Shown here: piece after piece, positions 29,227 through 46,385 of the stretch | Numbering within the stretch: the stretch's first letter is position 1 | How the letters are laid out: each line of letters begins with the position of its first letter | NCBI GenBank assembly: GCA_013150955.1 | Contig: JAADJD010000010.1 | Coordinates: 1 to 64,000 of the forward strand | Direction: 5' to 3' | Length of the DNA stretch: 64,000 nt | From: Calditrichota bacterium | GTDB taxonomy: Bacteria > Calditrichota > Calditrichia > RBG-13-44-9 > J042 | Notes under the pieces: generated by a model | What the model was told of the DNA's origin: nothing | The model's database searches: none | The model's input: only the letters and a program-made list of their open reading frames with translations | Position numbers and translations under genes: made by a program

Positions 29227-29649
29227 TTAACCATGTTCATTTTGCAACAAATACTGCTTGACCTCTTCCAGGGTATGCTGCTCGGCCCACTGGCTGAAAT
29301 ATTCCTTCAGGTCGCGCCAGAAAAAATGCAGGGGGCATGGCTTGTCTTCGCTGCATTCTTCCCATCCAAAAACGCAGGTGGAGGGTTCGGTGTCGTAATT
29401 CACCGCTTTGAGCACATCAGAGAAGTAGATCTCTGACAGTGGACGGGCCAGTACAAAGCCCCCGCCGTGGCCTTTCTGGGAGTTTAGCAGTCCGGCCGCG
29501 ACCAGTCGCCGCATGATTTTTGACAGATAGTGCAGGGGAATCCCCGTTTCCTCGGATAAATCCCGTGCCCGTACCGGTTTATCTGGAGGATTCGCTGCCA
29601 GCAAGGCCATTACCCGTAGCGCATACTCCGCCGTTTGCGTGAGTCTCAT
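29227..29649 (-). CDS. Rrf2-family iron-sulfur transcriptional regulator (NsrR/IscR type)
   Basis: A 140-residue Rrf2 protein. The helix-turn-helix is RARDLSEETGIPLHYLSKIMRRLVAAGLL, and the wing motif KGHGGGFVLARPL is classic for the family. Three cysteines, C92-X6-C99-X5-C105 (TCVFGWEEC, DKPC), sit where NsrR and IscR bind a [2Fe-2S] or [4Fe-4S] cluster. It is divergent from the heme-copper oxidase cluster with a 277-base gap holding a strong promoter and two 20-bp palindromes. The simplest reading is an NO- or redox-sensing repressor of that cluster. NsrR, IscR and RsrR share this fold and cannot be told apart by sequence alone. ATG at 29649, GGGAGG upstream. Confidence 0.9.
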   Translation of the reverse strand: MRLTQTAEYALRVMALLAANPPDKPVRARDLSEETGIPLHYLSKIMRRLVAAGLLNSQKGHGGGFVLARPLSEIYFSDVLKAVNYDTEPSTCVFGWEECSEDKPCPLHFFWRDLKEYFSQWAEQHTLEEVKQYLLQNEHG

Positions 29650-29926: not shown

Positions 29927-31333
29927 ATGGAGCCCTACAAAACCTCCCGGCAGTGGTTGGGCATCGGCATTGGCGCGTTAATGCTGGCCGGTTTTCTTTC
30001 CTTTGTCCTGGTGATTGGAAGGGCTCCGCTGATTCATCATCTCATTACCGATCCCCAATTTGCCCGCCGTTGTCTGGTCATCCACGTCAATCTGGCCTTG
30101 TTTGTGTGGTTATCGGCTGTTCTGGCCAGTTTGTACACGCTGCTTCCCGGATATCGATCGAAACGCGGGGGAACGCTGGAGCCTCCGCATCTGGCCATGA
30201 TGGGAATCGCCCTGTTTATTATTAGCGGAATGTTTCCGGCGGCTGAACCCATCATGTCCAATTATATTCCGGTGCTGGATCATCCACTCTTTTTTATCGG
30301 AATGGGACTGGTTTTGCTGGCTCTGGTGGTTACTTACCTGCAGGCGCATCCATTTCGTGTTCGCGCCATTGTCGATAGAGATCATCCCATTTTACCGGTA
30401 TCCGTGCAACACGGACTGCGGTGGACGGCCATTGCCTTTCTGCTGGCCGTCATGACCCTGATCATTACCTGGTGGCGATTGTCCAATCAACTGGATGCCG
30501 CTTTTTATTACGATTACCTGTTCTGGGGGGCGGGGCATGTCCTGCAATCGGTGAACGTCATGGGCATGGTCAACGTCTGGCTCATTTTATTTTCTCGCCT
30601 GCCCGGTCGTCCCTGGCTGTCGCTTCGCCTGACCAATAGTTTATTTGCCCTGTTGTGGCTGCCGTTGTTGTATGCTCCCTACATTGCCTATCACGCCCCC
30701 AACACCGGGTTTTATTATTCCCAGTTTACCCGCCTGATGCAATTTGGCATTTTCCCCGGTGTGCTGGGGTTTCTTTTCGTCATGGGGTATGCGTATTTTC
30801 GCCGGGTATCGGCAGCGGATCGCCGACTGTTCTGGCAGCAAACCCCGGCGCTGGGCTTTCTGGCCAGCATCACCTTAATTCTTACCGGATTTCTTCTGGG
30901 CGCTTTCATTCGGACGTCGAATACGCTGGTGCCCGCCCACTATCACGCCGCCATCGGTTCCATCACGGTGATCTATATGGTGATGGTTTATCAGCTATTA
31001 CCGTTTTTTGGGTTTCCGGTACTTTCCCGGTTGTTGCAGCGAATGGCCAGCTGGCAGCCGGTGGTTTTCGGGTTTGGGCAGACCATCTTTGCCGTGGGGT
31101 TTGCCATGGCCGGACTCACCCGCAAGGTTTACGGCGCCGAACAGCAAATCCACACCCTGAAAGAATATGTGGGCATGGGGTTGATGGGGCTGGGTGGGCT
31201 GATGGCCATTGCCGGGGGAATTCTATTTATCTGGATTGTTACCACAGCCGTTTCGCCAGCAGTTCCTTTATTCATCATAAAAAAAAGGAGGGCATTATGG
31301 AAGGCAATCAAAAGCATCCCCTTCAGAAGTTGA
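29927..31333 (+). CDS. Divergent heme-copper oxidase subunit I paralogue
   Basis: A 468-residue protein with about 12 membrane helices that aligns by eye with the subunit I encoded downstream. The low-spin heme histidine in CLVIHVNLALFVW and both helix-X heme histidines in VPAHYHAAIGS are kept. The first copper-site His is present in WGAGHVLQSVNV. In helix VII the usual HH pair becomes YH (APYIAYHAPNTG), so one expected copper ligand is tyrosine. The cross-linking Tyr position in helix VI is Ser. It could be a second catalytic subunit with an unusual binuclear site, or a heme-bearing structural subunit. ATG at 29927 is 44 bases after the predicted transcription start. The 3' end overlaps the next small gene. 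Confidence 0.8.
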   Translation: MEPYKTSRQWLGIGIGALMLAGFLSFVLVIGRAPLIHHLITDPQFARRCLVIHVNLALFVWLSAVLASLYTLLPGYRSKRGGTLEPPHLAMMGIALFIISGMFPAAEPIMSNYIPVLDHPLFFIGMGLVLLALVVTYLQAHPFRVRAIVDRDHPILPVSVQHGLRWTAIAFLLAVMTLIITWWRLSNQLDAAFYYDYLFWGAGHVLQSVNVMGMVNVWLILFSRLPGRPWLSLRLTNSLFALLWLPLLYAPYIAYHAPNTGFYYSQFTRLMQFGIFPGVLGFLFVMGYAYFRRVSAADRRLFWQQTPALGFLASITLILTGFLLGAFIRTSNTLVPAHYHAAIGSITVIYMVMVYQLLPFFGFPVLSRLLQRMASWQPVVFGFGQTIFAVGFAMAGLTRKVYGAEQQIHTLKEYVGMGLMGLGGLMAIAGGILFIWIVTTAVSPAVPLFIIKKRRALWKAIKSIPFRS

Positions 31334-31443
31334 TGGACAATCCCTGGTTACTTCTGGCGTTAGGTTTGCTCATCCCCATTTTGTCGTACACCGCATGGGG
31401 GTGGTATCAGATTGTCAACATGGCGAAAGCACTGTTACCATAA
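31297..31443 (+). CDS. 48-residue single-helix membrane peptide, putative oxidase small subunit
   Basis: A small reading frame starting ATG at 31297, preceded by AAAAAAAGGAGGGCATT, and overlapping the end of the previous gene by 37 bases in another frame. It encodes a short basic N-terminus, then one hydrophobic helix (WLLLALGLLIPILSYTAWGWY), then a short tail. Heme-copper oxidases of the B family carry such one-helix subunits (subunit IIa of ba3). Position between two oxidase genes, good ribosome-binding site and clean transmembrane pattern support it; no sequence motif proves the family. Confidence 0.75.
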   Translation: MEGNQKHPLQKLMDNPWLLLALGLLIPILSYTAWGWYQIVNMAKALLP

Positions 31444-31461: not shown

Positions 31462-31986
31462 ATGAGCATTAAAGTACCGGAATCCGATTGGTTTAAGCCC
31501 CCTGCAGGAAGCGAGCGGCTGTGGGTAGGGGTGGCGCTGGTCTGGTGTATGATCATGTTCCTGGCCATGCCCTACTGGCATTTTAAGGGAAAACAAAACG
31601 CGACCGGAGAATCGTATGCGGTGACGCCGGCAGAGTTTATGGAACGGGTCACCCGGTTTGTGGAGACCAACAAGGTGGGAGAAGAAAATGGCATTCCCAT
31701 TGTGGAGCCCTCTCCCGGTGGCGATGCATACCTGGTGGGTCAGATGTGGCGCTGGTATCCCATTCTGAAGTTAAAAGAAGGCCAGACGTATCGCCTGCAC
31801 ATCTCTTCGGTGGATTTGCAGCATGGGTTTTCGGTGTTGCCCATTAACATCAACTTTCAGGCGCTTCCGGGTTACGATCATGTCATTACCCTGACGCCTA
31901 CCAGTAAGGGGGTTTATCAAATCATCTGCAATGAATTTTGTGGCATCGGTCATCATTTAATGACAGGTCGAATCATCGTAGAATAG
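31462..31986 (+). CDS. Heme-copper oxidase subunit II with CuA centre
   Basis: A 174-residue subunit II. One N-terminal transmembrane helix (RLWVGVALVWCMIMFLAMPYW) anchors a periplasmic cupredoxin domain. The CuA ligands are all visible: the His in SSVDLQHGFSVLP and the CX3CX3HX2M-like motif CNEFCGIGHHLM. It receives electrons from a periplasmic donor and passes them to subunit I. The single-helix form matches B-family (ba3) subunit II. AGGAGGACAACT precedes the ATG at 31462. Order CuA subunit, catalytic subunit, SCO recalls the norSY-senC cluster known in Nitrosomonas (from memory). Confidence 0.93.
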   Translation: MSIKVPESDWFKPPAGSERLWVGVALVWCMIMFLAMPYWHFKGKQNATGESYAVTPAEFMERVTRFVETNKVGEENGIPIVEPSPGGDAYLVGQMWRWYPILKLKEGQTYRLHISSVDLQHGFSVLPININFQALPGYDHVITLTPTSKGVYQIICNEFCGIGHHLMTGRIIVE

Positions 31987-31997
31987 GAGAGAATGCC

Positions 31998-33719
31998 ATG
32001 GGTAACTTTTTAGAAGGTCGGTATCGCACCTGTAATACAACCGGGCTGCCGGTATGCCTGGATGCACAGTTTTTCATCCGGGCCCATGCGGTGGCCGCAG
32101 TGGTGTTTTTTCTGATTGGCGCGATTGCGGCTTTGCTGATCGCCCTGACGCGCTGGCAGGCCGTGCATCTGTTGTCTGCCATGTGGTTTTACCGCGTGTT
32201 AACCCTGCATGGCCTGAATATGTTGATTTTCTGGATTATTTCCTTTGAAATTGCCATTCTCTATTTTGCTGGAACCAGTCTGTTAAACACCCGCTTGTTT
32301 TCCCGAAAGGTGGCCTGGGTGGCCTACATTTTGATGGTGGTGGGTGCCCTGATGGTGGACTACATCGTGCTGATCGGAAAGGGCGACGTGTTGATGACTT
32401 CCTACGTGCCTCTGAAGGCGCATCCGCTGTTTTATCTGGGAATCATCCTGTTTGCCGTGGGCACGCTGACGGCGGTGTTCAACTTTTTTGCCACCATCTA
32501 CATTGCCCAGCGGGATAAGACCTACGAAGGATCCATGCCGCTGGTTGCCTTTGGGGCGCTGGCTGCGGCCATCATTGCTGTGCTGACACTGCTGCACGGT
32601 GCCACGGTCATGATCCCCAGCTTTCTGTGGTCGCTGGGATTGATTGAAAACATCGATGCCGGATGGTATCGGCTGGTCTGGTGGGGATTGGGACATCCGT
32701 CGCAGCAGATTAATGTGGCAGCCATGGTGGCGGTCTGGTATTTCCTGGCCACTTTGACCACCGGTGCCAAACCGTTGAACGAGACCGTATGCCGGGTGGC
32801 GTTTGTTTTCTACATTCTGTTCATCAATCTGGCTTCTGCACACCATCTGCTGGTGGATCCAGGCCTGAACGCCTCCTGGAAGATCTGGAACACCTCCTAC
32901 GCCATGTATCTGGCGGTGCTGGCTTCCATGATCCACGGCTTCACCGTGCCAGCATCCATTGAAGTGGCCCAGCGGCTGAAGGGATTTACCCGCGGCATTT
33001 TCAACTGGCTCACGTCCGCACCCTGGAGCGATCCGGGCTTTTCTTCCATGTTCATGTCCATCGTGATTTTCGGATTCATCGGTGGCATTACCGGCGTGAC
33101 CATCGGGACGGAACAGATCAACATCATTGCCCATAATACGCTGCGGGTACCGGGACATTTCCACGCCACGGTCGTGGGGGGTACCACGCTGGCTTTCATG
33201 GGCTTAACCTATTATGTGGTGCCACTGATCTTTCAGCGGGATTTTTATTTTAAGGGACTGGCCCGTATTCAGCCGTACATTTTCGCATCGGGTGTGGTGT
33301 TGTTGTCCATCGGAATGTCCTTTGCCGGTTCCTACGGTGTACCGCGGCGTCACTGGGATGTGAATTTTACCGGTGCACCCTTATCGGCCGGGTTCGATGC
33401 AGCGGCACATTTCATGCTGGGCTTGCTGGGCATTGGCGGAATCCTGGCATTCACCGGGGCGCTGATTTTCATTTTGCTGGTGGTAGCGGCGGTGTTCTTT
33501 GGTAAATCCCTTGCTGGACAACCCTTCAGCGGTTGGCAGCCTGCGGAGAAATTCAAACTGAGCATGGAAATTTTTGCCCGGAAAAAAGACGAAAAATTTG
33601 AAGAAATTGCCCACAAAGTACCTGGCACGGTGGTGCTGGTGTTTGTGTTGCTGGTATCGTTCATGGTGTATTACTTTGCCAACTGGAAAGCCCTGGCCGA
33701 TGTGTGGTACGTGCGTTAA
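31998..33719 (+). CDS. B-family heme-copper subunit I lacking the active-site tyrosine; probable NO reductase
   Basis: A 573-residue catalytic subunit with 12-14 helices. It aligns with Thermus ba3 subunit I: the heme His in TLHGLNMLIFW, copper His in WWGLGHPSQQI, HH in SAHHLLVDPG and heme histidines in VPGHFHATV. The residue four after the first copper-site His, the Tyr that cross-links to it in oxygen reductases, is Gln here (GHPSQQ for GHPIVY). No Tyr sits at the cbb3-type helix VII position either. Loss of both is expected of NO reductase lineages (sNOR/eNOR type), not oxygen reductases. The Rrf2 regulator and CuA subunit support that. The ATG at 31998 has AGGAGAGAATGCC; an upstream in-frame start is rejected. 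Confidence 0.87.
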   Translation: MGNFLEGRYRTCNTTGLPVCLDAQFFIRAHAVAAVVFFLIGAIAALLIALTRWQAVHLLSAMWFYRVLTLHGLNMLIFWIISFEIAILYFAGTSLLNTRLFSRKVAWVAYILMVVGALMVDYIVLIGKGDVLMTSYVPLKAHPLFYLGIILFAVGTLTAVFNFFATIYIAQRDKTYEGSMPLVAFGALAAAIIAVLTLLHGATVMIPSFLWSLGLIENIDAGWYRLVWWGLGHPSQQINVAAMVAVWYFLATLTTGAKPLNETVCRVAFVFYILFINLASAHHLLVDPGLNASWKIWNTSYAMYLAVLASMIHGFTVPASIEVAQRLKGFTRGIFNWLTSAPWSDPGFSSMFMSIVIFGFIGGITGVTIGTEQINIIAHNTLRVPGHFHATVVGGTTLAFMGLTYYVVPLIFQRDFYFKGLARIQPYIFASGVVLLSIGMSFAGSYGVPRRHWDVNFTGAPLSAGFDAAAHFMLGLLGIGGILAFTGALIFILLVVAAVFFGKSLAGQPFSGWQPAEKFKLSMEIFARKKDEKFEEIAHKVPGTVVLVFVLLVSFMVYYFANWKALADVWYVR

Positions 33720-33971: not shown

Positions 33972-34922
33972 ATGGGATTTTATAACCAGTTTCAGAAATT
34001 CATTATTAGCTGGCGTTTTGCGGTGTTAATGCTCTCGGTGCTTTTCTTCTTCACGCTTCTGATGATCCTGGTCATTTTGCTACCGACGGAATCCGGTGCG
34101 CTGGCGGCGTTTGCAGAGGACTTTAAAATCTGGTGTTTCCGCTACGATCCCGCGACCGGCACCATGGAATGGTCCTACGTGGTCATGTTCATGTTGCAGC
34201 CATTGTTGATTGGAACGGTCATTCTGGCGGTCTGGTGGAATCAGTTGCGCCAGGTGTTTCAGATGAATCGCCAGGGATTGTTTCCCTATATTGGGGGCGG
34301 TTTTATGGTGGTTCTGGTAGCGGCGGTGATTTTTGCGGTGGCGTTTCCGGTGGACAGTCAGGCCAGTCAGGAAGAGTTGCCCTTTCCTGCGGAACAGCTG
34401 CGAACGGAGTTTCGGGCACCCGATTTCACGCTAACGGATCATCGTGGCCAGACCATTCGACTTTCCGAACTGCGCGGCAAGGTGGTGTTGGTGACGGCGG
34501 TATATGCCAGTTGTGGACACACCTGCCCGCTGATCTTGCAGCAGGCCAAGCGGGTCTTTGCCCGGTTAACCGAAGCGGAAAAACAGCAACTGAAGGTGCT
34601 GGTGATTTCGCTGGATCCCGAAAACGATTCGCCAGAAATATTGCAGATGCTGGCTACCAATCAACAACTGGATGCACCGTACATCCATTTCCTTACCGGA
34701 GATCCAGAGCCGGTGAATCGGGCGCTGGACAACTATAGCATTTCCCGGCAGAAGGATCCCGAAACCGGGGTGATCAGTCATGCCAATTTGTTTATATTGG
34801 TGGACAAAGCCGGGCGGGTGGCCTATCGGTTTTCCCTGGGTCAGCAACAGGAAAACTGGTTGACCACCGCCCTGAAATTGCTGATTCATGAACCGGTAAA
34901 CACATCGACGTCAACGCTTTAA
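33972..34922 (+). CDS. SCO1/SenC-family protein with N-terminal membrane domain
   Basis: A 316-residue protein. Residues 1-130 hold three hydrophobic helices (FAVLMLSVLFFFTLLMILVILL, VVMFMLQPLLIGTVILAVWW, GGGFMVVLVAAVIFAVAF). A SCO thioredoxin-fold domain follows (about 145-310): FRAPDFTLTDHRGQTIRLSELRGKVVLVTAVYASCGHTCPL. The copper ligands are the CX3C pair (CGHTC, near residue 181) and the His in VISHANLF near 269. SCO proteins load copper into the CuA site of subunit II. Ordinary SCO has a single anchor, so the three-helix extension is unusual and might contact the oxidase or the cytochrome b encoded next. ATG at 33972 has GAGGGGTAGCC. Confidence 0.9.
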   Translation: MGFYNQFQKFIISWRFAVLMLSVLFFFTLLMILVILLPTESGALAAFAEDFKIWCFRYDPATGTMEWSYVVMFMLQPLLIGTVILAVWWNQLRQVFQMNRQGLFPYIGGGFMVVLVAAVIFAVAFPVDSQASQEELPFPAEQLRTEFRAPDFTLTDHRGQTIRLSELRGKVVLVTAVYASCGHTCPLILQQAKRVFARLTEAEKQQLKVLVISLDPENDSPEILQMLATNQQLDAPYIHFLTGDPEPVNRALDNYSISRQKDPETGVISHANLFILVDKAGRVAYRFSLGQQQENWLTTALKLLIHEPVNTSTSTL

Positions 34923-34935
34923 ACAGGAAGGCCCA

Positions 34936-37038
34936 ATGGAAACTCCAACGCTGTCGCGTGCGAAAAGGCGTGCCCCCGTTCAGTTACCGTTTCGGTCGGT
35001 TGGTGATGCGCGCTCGCATCCGCAGCTGGTTGGCGAACGGTTACTGCGCCAATGGAATACCCTGTTTATTCGATTGAATCAGTGGGTTAAGACGGCACTG
35101 CCCGATACGTTAAACCCCTTTGCCCAGATGGGGGCGGTGGCAAACACCACGTTTGTGATCGCTCTGATTTCCGGCATTCTGCTTCTGTTCTGGTATAGTC
35201 CCAGCATTCATTACGCATACGACTCGCTGGAGTCCATGCGCACCTCTTCCTTTCTGGGACAGTTGATGCGCTCCCTGCACCGTTACAGTTCCGATGCCTG
35301 CATCCTGTTCATGGTATTACATGCCTTTCAGGTGCTTTTTGCCGGGAAGTTTAGTGGGCCGCGCTGGCTGGCCTGGGTTTCGGGCGTGGTGCTGGCAGGA
35401 CTGCTCTGGGTGGATGGCTGGCTGGGGTACTGGCTGGTCTGGGATCAGCGTGCCCAGCTGGTGGCACTGGGTTCCGCCCGGATGCTGGATGTGCTGCCCT
35501 TTTTTGCCGATCCTCTTTCCCGATCTTTTTTAACCAATGAAAGTGTCAACTCCCTGCTCTTCTTCCTGGTCTTTTTTATGCACATGCTGATTCCTCTGGG
35601 CATCGGGATTGCTCTGTGGATTCACATCATGCGATTAAACCGTTCGGTATTTTTTACCCGGGCGAAATTAACCTGGGCCATTTTGATTTCGCTAACAATC
35701 TTATCGGTGATTTATCCCGCCACTTCGGCACCCCGCGCCGATATGCTCACCGTTCCCGACAAACTGACCATTGATTGGTTCTACCTGTTTCCGCTCTTTC
35801 TCACCGATCGGCTGGAGGGCGGCATGTTGTGGATGATAACGTTGGTGCTCACCGTTCTGGTTACCGCCGTGCCATGGTTGCTGCAAAGGCGGAAATCCCC
35901 GGTGGCCAGGGTGCTGGAAAGCCGGTGCAATGGATGCACGCAGTGCTACCAGGATTGCCCCTACAATGCCATTACCATGATGCCCCGTGCCGATCGGGAA
36001 GAACCGTACGCGTCGGTGGATCCTGCCCGCTGTGTGGGGTGCGGGATTTGCGTGGGCTCCTGCGATCCCGCAGGTGTGACCTATCCGTTACTGGAACCGC
36101 TGGATATCCGGCAGTGGATCAATCAGGTTCTGGAAGCGTCTTCGCCGGGGCAGACCCCGCCTTATCTGGCCTTTATTTGTGCCGAATCCGCCGGTGCCGA
36201 TCTGCAATTGAATGCAGCCGGAGAAAGTCCCGAATTACCCGGATATCGGATATTGCCGGTTCCCTGTGCCGGGTGGGTACATCCGTTGCTGATCGAACGC
36301 GCGGTACGCAAGGGTGCTGCCGGAGTGCTGATCGTCAGTTGCGATCTGGATCCTTATTGTCGCAAGGGAGTGGAGTGGACAGCCGAACGACTGGATGGAG
36401 AACGCAAGCCCGCCCTGCGAAAAGAAAAAGTAGGGGACACACCGGTGTACCATCTGCGTGTGGATCGCACCGAAAAGGATGCGTTTTTAAAAGCCGCACG
36501 GCAGTTCCAGCAGGAGGGCCGCATACCACAGCGATCTCCACGTAGCCGATTCTATCGCTGGACGGTGGCGGCGGTACTGGTGTTGGGACTGAGCCTGGCC
36601 ACGGTTGTTCCCAGCGATGCCTGGTATCCCACCGTTGTACCGGAACATCCGGAGGTGGTGGTGTCCTTCAAACATCCCGGTCAGCTGGTGGAGCAATCGG
36701 CGGCCACCCAGAAAAGCAATGACGAATTGTTACCCCACATGCGGGGTGCGGCATCCATCCAGCGGGTTCGGGTGCCTGTTAGAATGCGAATTTTTGTGGA
36801 TGGGAAGGAAGTGCTGAACAAATCCTATCGTCCCGGTGGCCTGTTTAATGATGGCACCAGCCTGGCCATTGAAAAGCTACCCATTCCCGAAGGGCGTCAT
36901 CGGGTGCGCATTGAAATTGGGGATAGCCCCGATCCCGACGAATGGAACTATGTGGATGAACGGGAAGTGGTGTTGGACAGCAATACCCGGCGCCATGTGG
37001 TGATGTTCGATAGGGTTAGTGGATTCAGGTGGTATTAA
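34936..37038 (+). CDS. Cytochrome b - 2[4Fe-4S] ferredoxin - MvhD fusion protein
   Basis: A 700-residue fusion. Residues about 50-325 form a bc1-type cytochrome b. Both heme pairs are HX13H (LHRYSSDACILFMVLH; FMHMLIPLGIGIALWIH). The Qo-site PEWY counterpart is IDWFY. Residues about 330-385 form a dicluster ferredoxin (CNGCTQCYQDCP, CVGCGICVGSCDP). Residues about 405-520 match the MvhD/FlpD hydrogenase delta domain (FICAESAGADLQ, PVPCAGWVHPLLIERAVRKGAAGVLIVSCD). A further helix (VAAVLVLGLSLATVV) and a beta-rich C-terminal domain of about 140 residues follow. It would join a quinone-reactive cytochrome b to a cytosolic electron-entry site. It sits 13 bases after the SCO gene. Confidence 0.88.
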   Translation: METPTLSRAKRRAPVQLPFRSVGDARSHPQLVGERLLRQWNTLFIRLNQWVKTALPDTLNPFAQMGAVANTTFVIALISGILLLFWYSPSIHYAYDSLESMRTSSFLGQLMRSLHRYSSDACILFMVLHAFQVLFAGKFSGPRWLAWVSGVVLAGLLWVDGWLGYWLVWDQRAQLVALGSARMLDVLPFFADPLSRSFLTNESVNSLLFFLVFFMHMLIPLGIGIALWIHIMRLNRSVFFTRAKLTWAILISLTILSVIYPATSAPRADMLTVPDKLTIDWFYLFPLFLTDRLEGGMLWMITLVLTVLVTAVPWLLQRRKSPVARVLESRCNGCTQCYQDCPYNAITMMPRADREEPYASVDPARCVGCGICVGSCDPAGVTYPLLEPLDIRQWINQVLEASSPGQTPPYLAFICAESAGADLQLNAAGESPELPGYRILPVPCAGWVHPLLIERAVRKGAAGVLIVSCDLDPYCRKGVEWTAERLDGERKPALRKEKVGDTPVYHLRVDRTEKDAFLKAARQFQQEGRIPQRSPRSRFYRWTVAAVLVLGLSLATVVPSDAWYPTVVPEHPEVVVSFKHPGQLVEQSAATQKSNDELLPHMRGAASIQRVRVPVRMRIFVDGKEVLNKSYRPGGLFNDGTSLAIEKLPIPEGRHRVRIEIGDSPDPDEWNYVDEREVVLDSNTRRHVVMFDRVSGFRWY

Positions 37039-41469: not shown

Positions 41470-42468
41470 ATGGAGATCGGGAAGAAAATCACCGCCCTGG
41501 CGCATCCCAACATTGCGCTGGTGAAATACTGGGGCAAACGTCAAAAACGGGGCAATTTGCCGGCGGTGGGATCCATTTCGATTACTCTGGATACGCTTTA
41601 CTCCCGAACCACGTTGACTCTGGACCCCTCACTGTCCAGCGATGTGTTTTATTTGAACGGCGCTCCGGGACCGGAAAATCAGCAGCGCCGGGTACAGACA
41701 TTTCTGGACTTATTTCGTCAGCGATCGGGTCAACAGGTATTTGCCCGGGTGGATAGCGAAAACAACTTCCCCACGGCTGCGGGATTGGCCTCGTCAGCAT
41801 CGGGATTTGCTGCACTGGCGGTGGCCGCCAATCGGGCGTTTCAGCTCGATTTATCGCCGCGGGAACTTTCGATGATTGCCCGTCAGGGATCCGGATCTGC
41901 GGCCCGATCCATTTTTGGAGGATTTGTGGAAATGCACGCCGGCGAAGATCCCGATGGCTCCGATGCGTTTGCAGAACCCCTGCTCCCTCCGGAAGCCTGG
42001 CCACTCCACGTGGTTATCTGCATTACCAGCACATCCGAAAAAGATATCGGCTCCACCGAAGGCATGGAACGGACTGCAAGCACTTCGCCATTTTACGAGG
42101 CCTGGGTGCAGGCATCGGTCAAGGATCTGGCCGAGATGCGACAGGCACTCCTGGCCCGGGACTTTGAGAAGTTGGCCGAGATTTCCGAACATAGCTGCCT
42201 GAAAATGCACGGCCTGGCCATGTCTGCCCGTCCGGGGATTGTATACTGGAACGGTACCACGGTGGAGCTGATGCATCACATTCGGCGGTTGCGCCATCAG
42301 GGGATTCCCGTATTTTTTACCATCGATGCGGGGCCCCAGGTGAAGGCCATTTGCCTGCCCGAGGCCCTGGAGCAGGTGCGCCGGGAGCTGGGGGGCATTC
42401 CCGGCGTACATCGTCTGTTTATTACCGGACTGGGTAAAGAAGCACGAATAATAGAGGACGATTCGTGA
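41470..42468 (+). CDS. mvaD: Diphosphomevalonate decarboxylase
   Basis: A 332-residue GHMP-fold enzyme that converts mevalonate diphosphate to isopentenyl diphosphate. Family motifs are ALVKYWGKR near the N-terminus, the phosphate loop NNFPTAAGLASSASGFAAL, GSGSAARSIFGGFVEM, the STEGMERT region and FFTIDAGPQVK. This decarboxylase set distinguishes it from the kinases of the same fold. First gene of the mevalonate operon. Its stop overlaps the next start codon (GTGA at 42465-42468). Confidence 0.95.
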   Translation: MEIGKKITALAHPNIALVKYWGKRQKRGNLPAVGSISITLDTLYSRTTLTLDPSLSSDVFYLNGAPGPENQQRRVQTFLDLFRQRSGQQVFARVDSENNFPTAAGLASSASGFAALAVAANRAFQLDLSPRELSMIARQGSGSAARSIFGGFVEMHAGEDPDGSDAFAEPLLPPEAWPLHVVICITSTSEKDIGSTEGMERTASTSPFYEAWVQASVKDLAEMRQALLARDFEKLAEISEHSCLKMHGLAMSARPGIVYWNGTTVELMHHIRRLRHQGIPVFFTIDAGPQVKAICLPEALEQVRRELGGIPGVHRLFITGLGKEARIIEDDS

Positions 42469-43541
42469 ATGCGACGACGCGGGCACCAGGGAAATTGATT
42501 TTGCTGGGAGAGTATGCGGTATTACGGGGTGCACCGGCACTGGTGACGGCGGTGGGACGTTACGCCCGGGTGCAGTTTCGCCCGGCATCCACTCCGCACA
42601 TTTGCCTGTCTGCACCGGAAATCGGGGTAAAGCAGGTGCTTCTGGAGGCAACCCCTCTGGGACAGGTTCGGTTTACCCATCCTCAGCCGCCGGAATGGGT
42701 TCGCAAAACCGCCTTTGTGCGTGCCGCCCTTGAAGTGGCCTGGCAGTGGTATCGGGAACGGGAAGTCGCCTTCCCCGCTTTTGAGCTCGACATTTCCACC
42801 CGCGAATTTTTTACGGATGACGGGCAGAAGCTGGGTCTGGGATCCAGTGCCGCGGTGACGGTCGCCATACTGGCAGGGCTTTTCGAAAATCTAATTCCGG
42901 GTGGCCGAACGTCCCCGGAATACGCGGAGTCCCTCCTGCTGGCGGCGCTTCAGGCGCATCAGCGGGCACAGGGACGCATGGGAAGCGGCGTGGATATTGC
43001 CGCCAGCACCATGGGACGGACGCTGGTGTACCGGATGCCCCCAATCCCCAACACGCTACCGGCCACCATTGAATATGTCCCCATTCCGACCAATCTCCAT
43101 ATGTTATTTGTGTGGACCGGGCAACCGGCCGCCACCCCGGAAATGCTTCAGCGGATCGAAGCATTTCAGCGACAATTTCCAGAAACGCATGCAAAGATTT
43201 TTGCCGAATTGATCGCACTCTCTGAACAGGGGGCGGATGCGTTCGTGCATCAGAACGTGGGTGCCTTTCTGGAGATTGTTGAACTCTATTATCAGATGTT
43301 CGTAAAACTAACCGAAAAAAGTCAGGCCCCGATAATATCCGATATACACCGGGACATTGCGGAACGGGTACGGCATCGGGGGGTGGTGTACAAGCCCTCA
43401 GGTGCCGGTGGTGGCGATTTTGGGATTGTTTTTTCCGACGATCTGGCCGAAATTGAACAGGCCAGAAACATGTTGACATCCGCTGGATACACCGTTTTTG
43501 ATTTACCGATTGATGTTGAAGGAGTGTACATAAATTCATAA
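42465..43541 (+). CDS. Phosphomevalonate kinase
   Basis: A 358-residue GHMP kinase. APGKLILLGEYAVLRGAPALV at the N-terminus, the ATP loop KLGLGSSAAVTVA, GSGVDIAAST and the C-terminal KPSGAGGGDFGI are typical of bacterial phosphomevalonate kinase (GHMP type). It phosphorylates mevalonate-5-phosphate. GTG start at 42465 overlaps the stop of mvaD by four bases, so the two are translationally coupled. The fusion gene downstream starts 16 bases after its stop. Confidence 0.92.
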   Translation: MNATTRAPGKLILLGEYAVLRGAPALVTAVGRYARVQFRPASTPHICLSAPEIGVKQVLLEATPLGQVRFTHPQPPEWVRKTAFVRAALEVAWQWYREREVAFPAFELDISTREFFTDDGQKLGLGSSAAVTVAILAGLFENLIPGGRTSPEYAESLLLAALQAHQRAQGRMGSGVDIAASTMGRTLVYRMPPIPNTLPATIEYVPIPTNLHMLFVWTGQPAATPEMLQRIEAFQRQFPETHAKIFAELIALSEQGADAFVHQNVGAFLEIVELYYQMFVKLTEKSQAPIISDIHRDIAERVRHRGVVYKPSGAGGGDFGIVFSDDLAEIEQARNMLTSAGYTVFDLPIDVEGVYINS

Positions 43542-43557
43542 CGCGAGGGAAGCAACA

Positions 43558-45828
43558 ATGGATCGTTCCAGAATACCTAAGTTTTACCAGTATTCGGTAG
43601 AAGAACGTTTACGCATCCTGCTGGAGCGGGACATCATTACCAAAGAAGATTATCAGATGCTGGTGAATGGTCGGCAGATTTTGACCAACGAAGCGGCCGA
43701 CAAGATGGTGGAGAACGTCATTGGCGTGTTCAGTTTGCCCATGGGCCTGGGGCTGAATTTTCTGATTAATGGCAAGGACTACGTGGTGCCCATGGTGGTG
43801 GAGGAACCATCGATTATTGCGGCCGTGAGTTCAGCAGCGAAAATTGTTCGGGCTGCGGGTGGTTTTAAAAGCGAGAGCACGGAACCCATCCTGATTGGTC
43901 AGATTCAGGTGGTCGATATTGAACACCCGTCGAAAGCGCAGCATGCCATCCTGCAAAATAAGGAGGAAATTTTAAATCTGGCCAACAGCCTGCATCCCAA
44001 CATGGTGGCCCGGGGTGGCGGTGCTAAGGATCTGGAAGTGGTGATTCATCCCAATGCTTCTCACCGGGGGGATATGGTGGTGGTCCACCTGTTGGTGGAC
44101 ACCCGGGATGCCATGGGAGCCAATCTGGTAAACAGCATGTGCGAAGGAGTGGCCTCGCTGATCGAAAAGATCACCAATGGAAAGGTGTTTTTGCGTATTC
44201 TGTCCAACCTGTCGGATCGGTCCATGGTGCGCACGGAGGCGGTGATCCCGGTGAAGTTGCTGGAGGGGAAAGGATACTCCGGCGAGGAAGTGCGGGATGG
44301 CATCATCCTGGCCAACGAATTTGCCGTGGTCGATCCCTATCGGGCTACCACGCATAATAAGGGGATCATGAACGGAATCGATGCGGTGGCGATTGCCACC
44401 GGTAACGATTGGCGCGCCATCGAGGCAGCGGCGCATGCGTATGCCGCCCGGGGAAATGCCTATACGGCGCTGACCCGCTGGTACAAAAACGATCAGGGGG
44501 ATCTGGTTGGCTATCTGGAGCTCCCGTTGAAAGTGGGCACCGTCGGTGGGCCGCTGCAATCCAATCCGGTGGTGCGCATCGCTCATCGCATTCTGGGGAT
44601 TCAATCCGCCAGGGAGTTGATGGAAGTGATGGGCGCGGTGGGATTGGCCCAGAATTTCGCCGCTCTACGGGCGCTCTCAACCGAGGGCATTCAACGGGGA
44701 CACATGAGTTTACACGCGCGAACGGTCGCCATGGCCGCAGGGGCTACGCCCGACATTTTTGATGAAGTCGTAGAACAGTTAATAGAAAGCGGCGAGATTA
44801 AAGTGTGGAAGGCCGAGGAAATTGTCAAAAAGATTCGATCCCGCAAGGAAAAGCCCCGGGTGCTGGTTACCGAAAAAGCCGAGAGTCCGCTGTCGTCCGG
44901 ATTCGGGAAGGTGATTTTGCTGGGTGAACATGCCGTGGTGTACGGGAGTCACGCCCTGGCTGCACCCATTCCACTGGCCATTCAGGCAAAAGTGGAAGAC
45001 AGCGATGACGGAATTCACCTGATCATCCCCCGATGGGGAGTGGAAGAAAAACTCCACATGAATGTGGAACACAAGTATTCCATTTACCAGTCGCTGGATT
45101 TAATTTTGAACGAACTGGGCCTGCGGGACAAGAATGTCCGAATTGAAGTTTTCCCACACATTCCCCGGGCTATGGGACTGGGAGGATCGGCTGCGCTGGC
45201 AGTGGCCATTATTCGGGCACTGGATCAGCATTTTGGATTAAACCTCAGCAACGAGGAGATCAACCGGCTGGCCTACGAGTCGGAAAAATTGGTGCATGGC
45301 ACTCCTTCTGGAATTGATAACACCATGGCAACATACGGTAAGTTTATCCTCTTTCAGAAAGGGGATCCGCCCAAAATGGAAGAAATTCGAGTACCCAAAC
45401 CCATTCCCATTGTCATCGGTCTCAGCGGGGTGGAGAGCCTGACCGCCAAAATGGTGGCCAAGGTTCGAGAAGCCTGGGAGAAAAACCAGTCGCTGTACAA
45501 CCGGATTTTTCAGGAAATTAACGAGCTGGTCCTTCAGGCGGTGGAAGCGGTTCAACAATACGATCTGGAAAGACTGGGCGAATTGATGAATATTAATCAG
45601 GGATTGCTGAATGCCCTGCAGGTATCCAGCTGGGAACTGGAAGAATTGATTGAGATTGCCCGCAATAATGGGGCCCTGGGGGCCAAGTTGACCGGTGGGG
45701 GCGGTGGCGGTGCCATGATTGCCCTCTGCCCGGATAACGCCGATGACGTGGCGGCTGCCATGCAACGGGCGGGATACAAAGCCATGGTAACCCAGATTGG
45801 AACAAAAGAAGGCGAGGACAATAAATGA
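43558..45828 (+). CDS. HMG-CoA reductase (class II) - mevalonate kinase fusion
   Basis: A 756-residue bifunctional enzyme. Residues 1-425 are a class II HMG-CoA reductase with the catalytic Glu in VEEPSIIAAVS, TRDAMGANLVN, the Lys in RATTHNKGIMNG, the Asp in ATGNDWRAIEA, GTVGGPLQSNP and the His in HMSLHART. A linker follows near 425-443. Residues about 443-756 are mevalonate kinase with FGKVILLGEHAVVYGSHALA, the ATP loop GLGGSAALAVA, GTPSGIDNTMATYG and TGGGGGGAMI. Reduction of HMG-CoA and phosphorylation of mevalonate are thus joined in one chain. No stop or frameshift separates the halves. HMG-CoA synthase is not in the window. Ends in ATGA overlap with idi. Confidence 0.95.
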   Translation: MDRSRIPKFYQYSVEERLRILLERDIITKEDYQMLVNGRQILTNEAADKMVENVIGVFSLPMGLGLNFLINGKDYVVPMVVEEPSIIAAVSSAAKIVRAAGGFKSESTEPILIGQIQVVDIEHPSKAQHAILQNKEEILNLANSLHPNMVARGGGAKDLEVVIHPNASHRGDMVVVHLLVDTRDAMGANLVNSMCEGVASLIEKITNGKVFLRILSNLSDRSMVRTEAVIPVKLLEGKGYSGEEVRDGIILANEFAVVDPYRATTHNKGIMNGIDAVAIATGNDWRAIEAAAHAYAARGNAYTALTRWYKNDQGDLVGYLELPLKVGTVGGPLQSNPVVRIAHRILGIQSARELMEVMGAVGLAQNFAALRALSTEGIQRGHMSLHARTVAMAAGATPDIFDEVVEQLIESGEIKVWKAEEIVKKIRSRKEKPRVLVTEKAESPLSSGFGKVILLGEHAVVYGSHALAAPIPLAIQAKVEDSDDGIHLIIPRWGVEEKLHMNVEHKYSIYQSLDLILNELGLRDKNVRIEVFPHIPRAMGLGGSAALAVAIIRALDQHFGLNLSNEEINRLAYESEKLVHGTPSGIDNTMATYGKFILFQKGDPPKMEEIRVPKPIPIVIGLSGVESLTAKMVAKVREAWEKNQSLYNRIFQEINELVLQAVEAVQQYDLERLGELMNINQGLLNALQVSSWELEELIEIARNNGALGAKLTGGGGGGAMIALCPDNADDVAAAMQRAGYKAMVTQIGTKEGEDNK

Positions 45829-46385
45829 CCGATCACCCACGGGTATCTTTTGATAGCGAAGAACTTATCCTGGTGAATGAACATGACCAGGTTGTCGGGT
45901 ATCTGGACAAGGCCAGTTGCCATCAGGGGCAAGGAATTTTGCATCGGGCATTCTCAATTTTCATTTTTAATGACAAAGGGCAGTTGTTGTTGCAGCAGCG
46001 CAGTGGCCAGAAGCCCCTCTGGCCACTGTTCTGGTCCAATAGCTGTTGTAGTCACCCGCGCAAGGGAGAAACCACCGAAGACGCCACCCAACGCCGTTTG
46101 CTGGAGGAGTTGGGATTTACCACGCCATTAACCTATCTTTACAAATTTATTTACCAGGCGCCGTTCGAGGACAAGGGGGCTGAACACGAGTTGTGCTATG
46201 TTTATGTGGGAAAATATTCCGGCCCCGTGAAGGTGAATCCCAACGAAATTGCTGAGTGGAAATTTATGGATGTGGAAGAACTGGACCGGGACATGGCCGA
46301 ACATCCGGAACGCTATACCCCCTGGTTTAAAATGGAATGGGAACGGATTCGGAAAGAATTCTGGGACGTGGTGCAATCCCTTTAA
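45825..46385 (+). CDS. idi: Isopentenyl-diphosphate isomerase type 1
   Basis: A 186-residue Nudix-fold isomerase interconverting IPP and DMAPP. The active-site signatures are the Cys in FWSNSCCSHPRKGE and the Glu in HELCYVY, within RRLLEELGF. It has the usual length of type 1 Idi. The ATG at 45825 overlaps the stop of the fusion gene by four bases (ATGA), so all four mevalonate genes form one operon on the plus strand. Confidence 0.95.
   Translation: MTDHPRVSFDSEELILVNEHDQVVGYLDKASCHQGQGILHRAFSIFIFNDKGQLLLQQRSGQKPLWPLFWSNSCCSHPRKGETTEDATQRRLLEELGFTTPLTYLYKFIYQAPFEDKGAEHELCYVYVGKYSGPVKVNPNEIAEWKFMDVEELDRDMAEHPERYTPWFKMEWERIRKEFWDVVQSL

Follow-up and report, generated by a model that had tools for sequence, protein, structure and literature searches.

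Downstream of a CuA-containing heme-copper enzyme and an SCO chaperone, a Calditrichota bacterium encodes a single protein that joins a cytochrome b to a ferredoxin and an FlpD domain, and we asked what such a protein does at this place. The window, that is, the whole stretch of DNA analysed, comprises 64,000 nucleotides (positions 1 to 64,000 of contig JAADJD010000010.1). As set out below, the upstream cluster encodes, by sequence, an eNOR-type nitric oxide reductase and not a CuA oxygen reductase. The fusion is a real, ancient and near-constant gene neighbour of eNOR in many bacterial phyla, and it probably supplies this enzyme with electrons during N2O formation.

Table 1. Genes of the eNOR cluster in the window and domains of the fusion protein.
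Feature	Position	Strand	Remarks
Divergent Rrf2-family regulator	29227..29649	-	Cys92/99/105; Pfam Rrf2
Heme-copper-like paralogue	29927..31333	+	without the CuB HH pair
Small single-TM protein, 48 aa (LMDNPWLLL...YTAWGW)	31297..31443	+	conserved directly upstream of CuA
eNOR subunit II	31462..31986	+	complete CuA motif CxExCxxxHxxM; Pfam COX2
eNOR subunit I (heme-copper)	31998..33719	+	Gln at H233+4; HH at 282-283
SCO/SenC family copper chaperone, N-terminal membrane part	33972..34922	+	Pfam SCO1-SenC
Cytochrome b - 2[4Fe-4S] ferredoxin - FlpD - TM - beta-domain fusion protein	34936..37038	+	700 aa
Cytochrome b domain	35095..35883	+	residues 54-316; Pfam, conservation, Foldseek to cytochromes b
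2[4Fe-4S] ferredoxin domain	35905..36072	+	residues 324-379; eight invariant Cys
FlpD/MvhD domain	36163..36516	+	residues 410-527; four Cys; Pfam FlpD (PF02662) 40.9 bits, cut-off 22.3
TM helix and C-terminal beta domain, family unknown	36547..37035	+	helix at residues 538-561

The original prediction of cytochrome b, ferredoxin, MvhD/FlpD, a helix and a beta domain in one protein was borne out: the reading frame is intact from ATG to stop, and Pfam matches Cytochrome_B (residues 54-235, E 2.8e-23), Fer4_7 (330-376, 2.3e-9) and FlpD (411-526, 2.4e-10) in this order. An AlphaFold2 model built from 10 sequences had a mean pLDDT of 79.7. The cytochrome b domain consists of four N-domain helices followed by helices E and F, and Foldseek aligned the model with solved cytochromes b over ~280-300 columns, so the likeness extends past the four-helix b6 half. 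As in cytochromes bc1/b6f, the four-helix part carries two HX13H pairs (H115/H129 and H216/H230); these heme pairs had been predicted, and all four His are invariant in 31 homologues. GYWLVWDQ corresponds to the motif that cytochrome b6 has on its Qo side. The PEWY motif of bc1/b6f is missing, and IDWFY stands in its place (ef-type loop IDWFYLFP), as had also been noted. Within this loop Asp280 is kept in most homologues, and the residue that follows it is variable (Trp in 19/31).

The eight ferredoxin Cys are invariant in the 31 homologues. The FlpD domain has four of the usual six Cys, which are conserved in ~29 of the 31 proteins and have all disappeared from one Opitutales homologue (L028). 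This loss of the FlpD Cys, set against ferredoxin Cys that are never lost, suggests that the indispensable redox site on the inner side is formed by the ferredoxin clusters, FlpD being a partly dispensable adaptor. By homology to cytochrome b topology, ferredoxin and FlpD would lie on the inner side of the membrane, and the C-terminal hydrophobic helix would place the beta domain outside. Six loci (L031, L081, L082, L083, L086 and L126) encode the TM-beta part on its own, in the gene that follows directly downstream. The beta domain had no Pfam match, and its AlphaFold model (pLDDT 83.7) had no match to a PDB fold below E 1e-3, the best structural matches being weak ones to Ig-like carbohydrate-binding modules.

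A Gln in place of the cross-linked active-site Tyr is diagnostic of eNOR (PMC8756737). In subunit I encoded in the window this residue is Q237 (GHxxQQ), four positions after a CuB His, and it is invariant in 20 of 20 aligned subunits I, which identifies the neighbouring enzyme as an eNOR-type nitric oxide reductase. A CuA subunit II is encoded directly upstream, and its CuA motif is complete in the window and in 27 of 27 relatives. Thus, of the predicted position 'downstream of a CuA oxidase and SCO', the adjoining CuA enzyme and SCO were confirmed, but the Gln marks the enzyme as eNOR instead of an oxygen reductase. No gene for a Rieske protein or cytochrome c1/f was found among the cluster genes of the window, and no Rieske protein was noted in the eNOR loci listed. 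The cluster is preceded by the Rrf2 regulator with its three Cys, relatives of which recur in other loci; this would fit a possible role in NO or Fe-S sensing.

Further genes were seen in and around such clusters. The heme-copper-like paralogue of the window retains the heme ligands H53, H338 and H340 as well as H204 with Q207, had no Pfam or NCBIfam match and is conserved in 13 eNOR loci, sometimes adjoining CtaA/CtaB. Three eNOR subunits I (L089:8770-10440, L117:8806-10491 and L118:4530-6212) read GHFKGT where others have GHFHxT, so that Lys takes the place of the presumed His ligand of the low-spin heme. In a Planctomycetota locus, a large lipoprotein-like protein that contains He_PIG and Kelch repeats (L025:3893-6295) is encoded immediately upstream of eNOR, with equivalents in L026, L027, L029 and L048. 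An apparent fusion of SCO in L055/L056 was rejected, as the long ORF lies in GC-rich DNA and is read in a different frame from the SCO gene that it overlaps. Elsewhere in the window, a 756-aa ORF (43558-45828) resembles HMG-CoA reductase joined to mevalonate kinase and lies in a putative run of mevalonate-pathway genes (41470-46385).

How could the fusion serve eNOR? We give somewhat better than an even chance to the view that it is a dedicated electron-input module, which would oxidise quinol at a Qo-like site and hand the electrons to CuA. The cytochrome b part would sit in the membrane beside the eNOR core, presumably in a physical complex, and its outer-side Qo-like site would oxidise a quinol, possibly menaquinol, without Rieske protein or cytochrome c. 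Electrons from this site would pass directly to the CuA of subunit II, with the beta domain as a candidate docking piece on the outer side. The two b hemes and the inner-side chain of 2[4Fe-4S] clusters and FlpD would link the Qo-like site with a cytoplasmic redox partner, and would most likely accept the second, low-potential electron of the quinol. The observations behind this scheme are the domains, the ligands, the topology by homology, the conserved neighbourhood and the co-occurrence described below. In line with it, the predicted new electron route into a terminal reductase is plausible given the adjacency to eNOR, although this reductase is not an oxygen-reducing one.

The main alternative, which we regard as unlikely, is a transmembrane wire, in which a cytoplasmic donor (ferredoxin, an NADH enzyme or an HdrA-like flavoprotein) would pass electrons through FlpD/ferredoxin and the b hemes to CuA without any oxidation of quinol. 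The inner-side position of the Fe-S domains, the retention of FlpD Cys in most homologues and the exchange of electrons with HdrA by FlpD domains elsewhere are consistent with a wire, as is the HdrA/MvhD/hydrogenase set of the window genome. However, the Qo-type residues are conserved (WD170 in 31/31 and Asp280 in 29/31 homologues) and would be superfluous for a plain wire, the clusters contain no conserved gene for a cytoplasmic partner, and the Opitutales protein has none of the FlpD Cys. The link of MvhD to hydrogenase and heterodisulfide reductase that had been drawn in the original prediction was not seen at these loci, and the FlpD domain has lost two Cys; in the window genome such genes occur only elsewhere, on contig C40, as an HdrB/HdrA, MvhD and hydrogenase small and large subunit cluster with an FlpD of its own (L130:5555-11614). 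For the quinol-oxidising module, a Rieske-free, quinone-based bifurcation could be envisaged, in which CuA and NO would receive one electron of the quinol, while the second would travel via the b hemes to ferredoxin/FlpD. We hold this to be doubtful; if true, the large energy of NO reduction would yield low-potential reductant in the cytoplasm.

To follow the partnership across genomes, we used protein and profile searches, which detected the fusion in at least five phyla. Relatives at 79, 67 and 53% identity occur in the family and order of the window's genome, and homologues were also found in Planctomycetota, Verrucomicrobiota (Opitutales), Nitrospirota, a deltaproteobacterial bin and other lineages. 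A complete plasmid of Defluviimonas sp. SAOS-178_SWC, with the cluster WP_347309649-WP_347309655, encodes cytochrome b, ferredoxin and FlpD in one protein of 526 aa, and the next gene codes for the beta domain; directly behind these genes and those of eNOR comes a hemerythrin gene (L126:16089-16493). The search for the same domain order and for adjacency to heme-copper enzymes was positive on both counts: in 31 loci the fusion adjoins the CuA and subunit I genes of eNOR, usually directly behind SCO. The common neighbourhood could have been transferred as a cassette.

Two whole-genome surveys with separate profiles for fusion and eNOR support this partnership well. Among 385 genomes, 14 had both, four only the fusion, three only eNOR and 364 neither (Fisher p 1.4e-19); among 246, the respective numbers were 12, one, one and 232 (Fisher p 2e-18). 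The fusion-only genome of the second survey (G207) carries part of an eNOR subunit I gene next to the fusion, where the contig ends, and in three of the four in the first (G363, G505 and G397) cytochrome b-ferredoxin and FlpD are instead encoded by separate genes, which adjoin a CcoN-like gene and that of a further cytochrome b. eNOR without the fusion was found in four genomes (G058, G454, G071 and G141), in one of which (G141) c-type cytochromes adjoin eNOR, so the enzyme can work otherwise; since fusion-linked members served to build the eNOR profile, it may miss more distant eNOR. In a tree of the cytochrome b domain the eNOR-linked set lies on one side of a branch with support of 96/99, and this set includes one protein (L033, genome G088) from a short contig on which no eNOR gene is seen. 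Across 27 loci, cytochrome b distances track those of eNOR subunit I (r=0.92).

These data bear on a further alternative, that the fusion is an independent quinone-linked dehydrogenase riding in a denitrification cassette while eNOR is fed by cytochrome c or cupredoxins as usual. The genomes with eNOR alone, the c-type cytochromes adjoining in Planctomycetota loci and two distant cytochrome b-ferredoxin-FlpD proteins that are not beside eNOR all speak for it. We nevertheless consider it improbable, given the near one-to-one co-occurrence across phyla, the single well-supported group with correlated divergence formed by the eNOR-linked proteins and a window cluster that is without cytochrome c. 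The two distant proteins (L084:8741-10588 and L087:4230-6311) come from genomes that carry the eNOR-linked form too. Split cytochrome b-ferredoxin and FlpD genes were seen in L085, L088 and L090, clustered with a second cytochrome b, a diheme cytochrome c, a CcoN-like subunit and a Rieske-like ORF without Pfam match, possibly a second kind of complex made from the same modules. In seven genomes (G047, G370, G444, G468, G490, G499 and G306) the eNOR-linked form was the only PF00033 cytochrome b found; each of the seven encodes NrfD-type proteins and may therefore possess an alternative complex III. Two Rieske/cytochrome b loci of the ordinary kind occur in the window genome.

A CuA oxygen reductase as the upstream enzyme, with the fusion feeding oxygen respiration, is very improbable. 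Subunit I does fall in COX1 and the Defluviimonas copy is annotated as an oxidase, but the replacement of the cross-linked Tyr in every aligned subunit is the published mark of eNOR, and there is linkage to NirS and NosZ. NosZ of the window genome scored 882 bits, above the family cut-off; in the same genome the search for NirS gave a weak beta-propeller match and that for NirK stayed below the cut-off. NirS is encoded next to the eNOR cluster in the Planctomycetota locus L025 (Cytochrom_D1, 423 bits), and in several other loci heme-c ORFs of NirS-like size occupy the corresponding place. An assembly error or chance fusion is ruled out by many independent genomes and the complete plasmid, the same domain order in close relatives, in other phyla and on that plasmid showing that the join is no artefact.

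In many little-studied phyla, eNOR has only recently been recognised as a source of N2O, and a proton channel has been ascribed to it. A cytochrome b-Fe-S protein as its near-constant partner would be a concrete and testable answer to the question of its electron supply, and extends the range of cytochrome b complexes by one that has no Rieske protein. The fusion also provides a marker that separates eNOR clusters from misannotated oxidases and, if it bifurcates, would represent a new means of saving energy from denitrification.

Compared with known systems, the cluster resembles the eNOR of PMC8756737 in the active-site Gln of subunit I and in the CuA subunit II directly upstream. There eNOR is described as a two-subunit CuA enzyme, with no mention of a cytochrome b-ferredoxin-FlpD partner (PMC8756737), and the open literature searched contained no account of the linkage; Murali et al. 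2024 (PMC11214002) lies outside this comparison. Already known are eNOR itself and the set of cytochrome b6, Fe-S (DMSOR_beta-like) and FlpD domains in one ORF, RME88945.1 (Table A3, PMC8756737), which in contrast to the fusion adds a cytochrome c (C1) homologue and is listed as a domain co-occurrence, unlinked to eNOR. With bc1/b6f cytochromes b the fusion shares two bis-His b-heme sites, the WD motif, an acidic residue in the ef-loop and the fold, whereas it differs in a cluster without Rieske or cytochrome c gene, in IDWF for PEWY and in its fused inner-side Fe-S domains. The order of ferredoxin and FlpD is that of the HdrA2 C-terminus; unlike MvhD and HdrA2, however, the fusion lacks the flavoprotein part, has four instead of six Cys and is joined to a cytochrome b. 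Finally, anammox Rieske/cytochrome b complexes are proposed to make NAD(P)H (PMC12954380); these contain Rieske proteins, which the fusion does not, but share with it the idea of an inner-side redox output.
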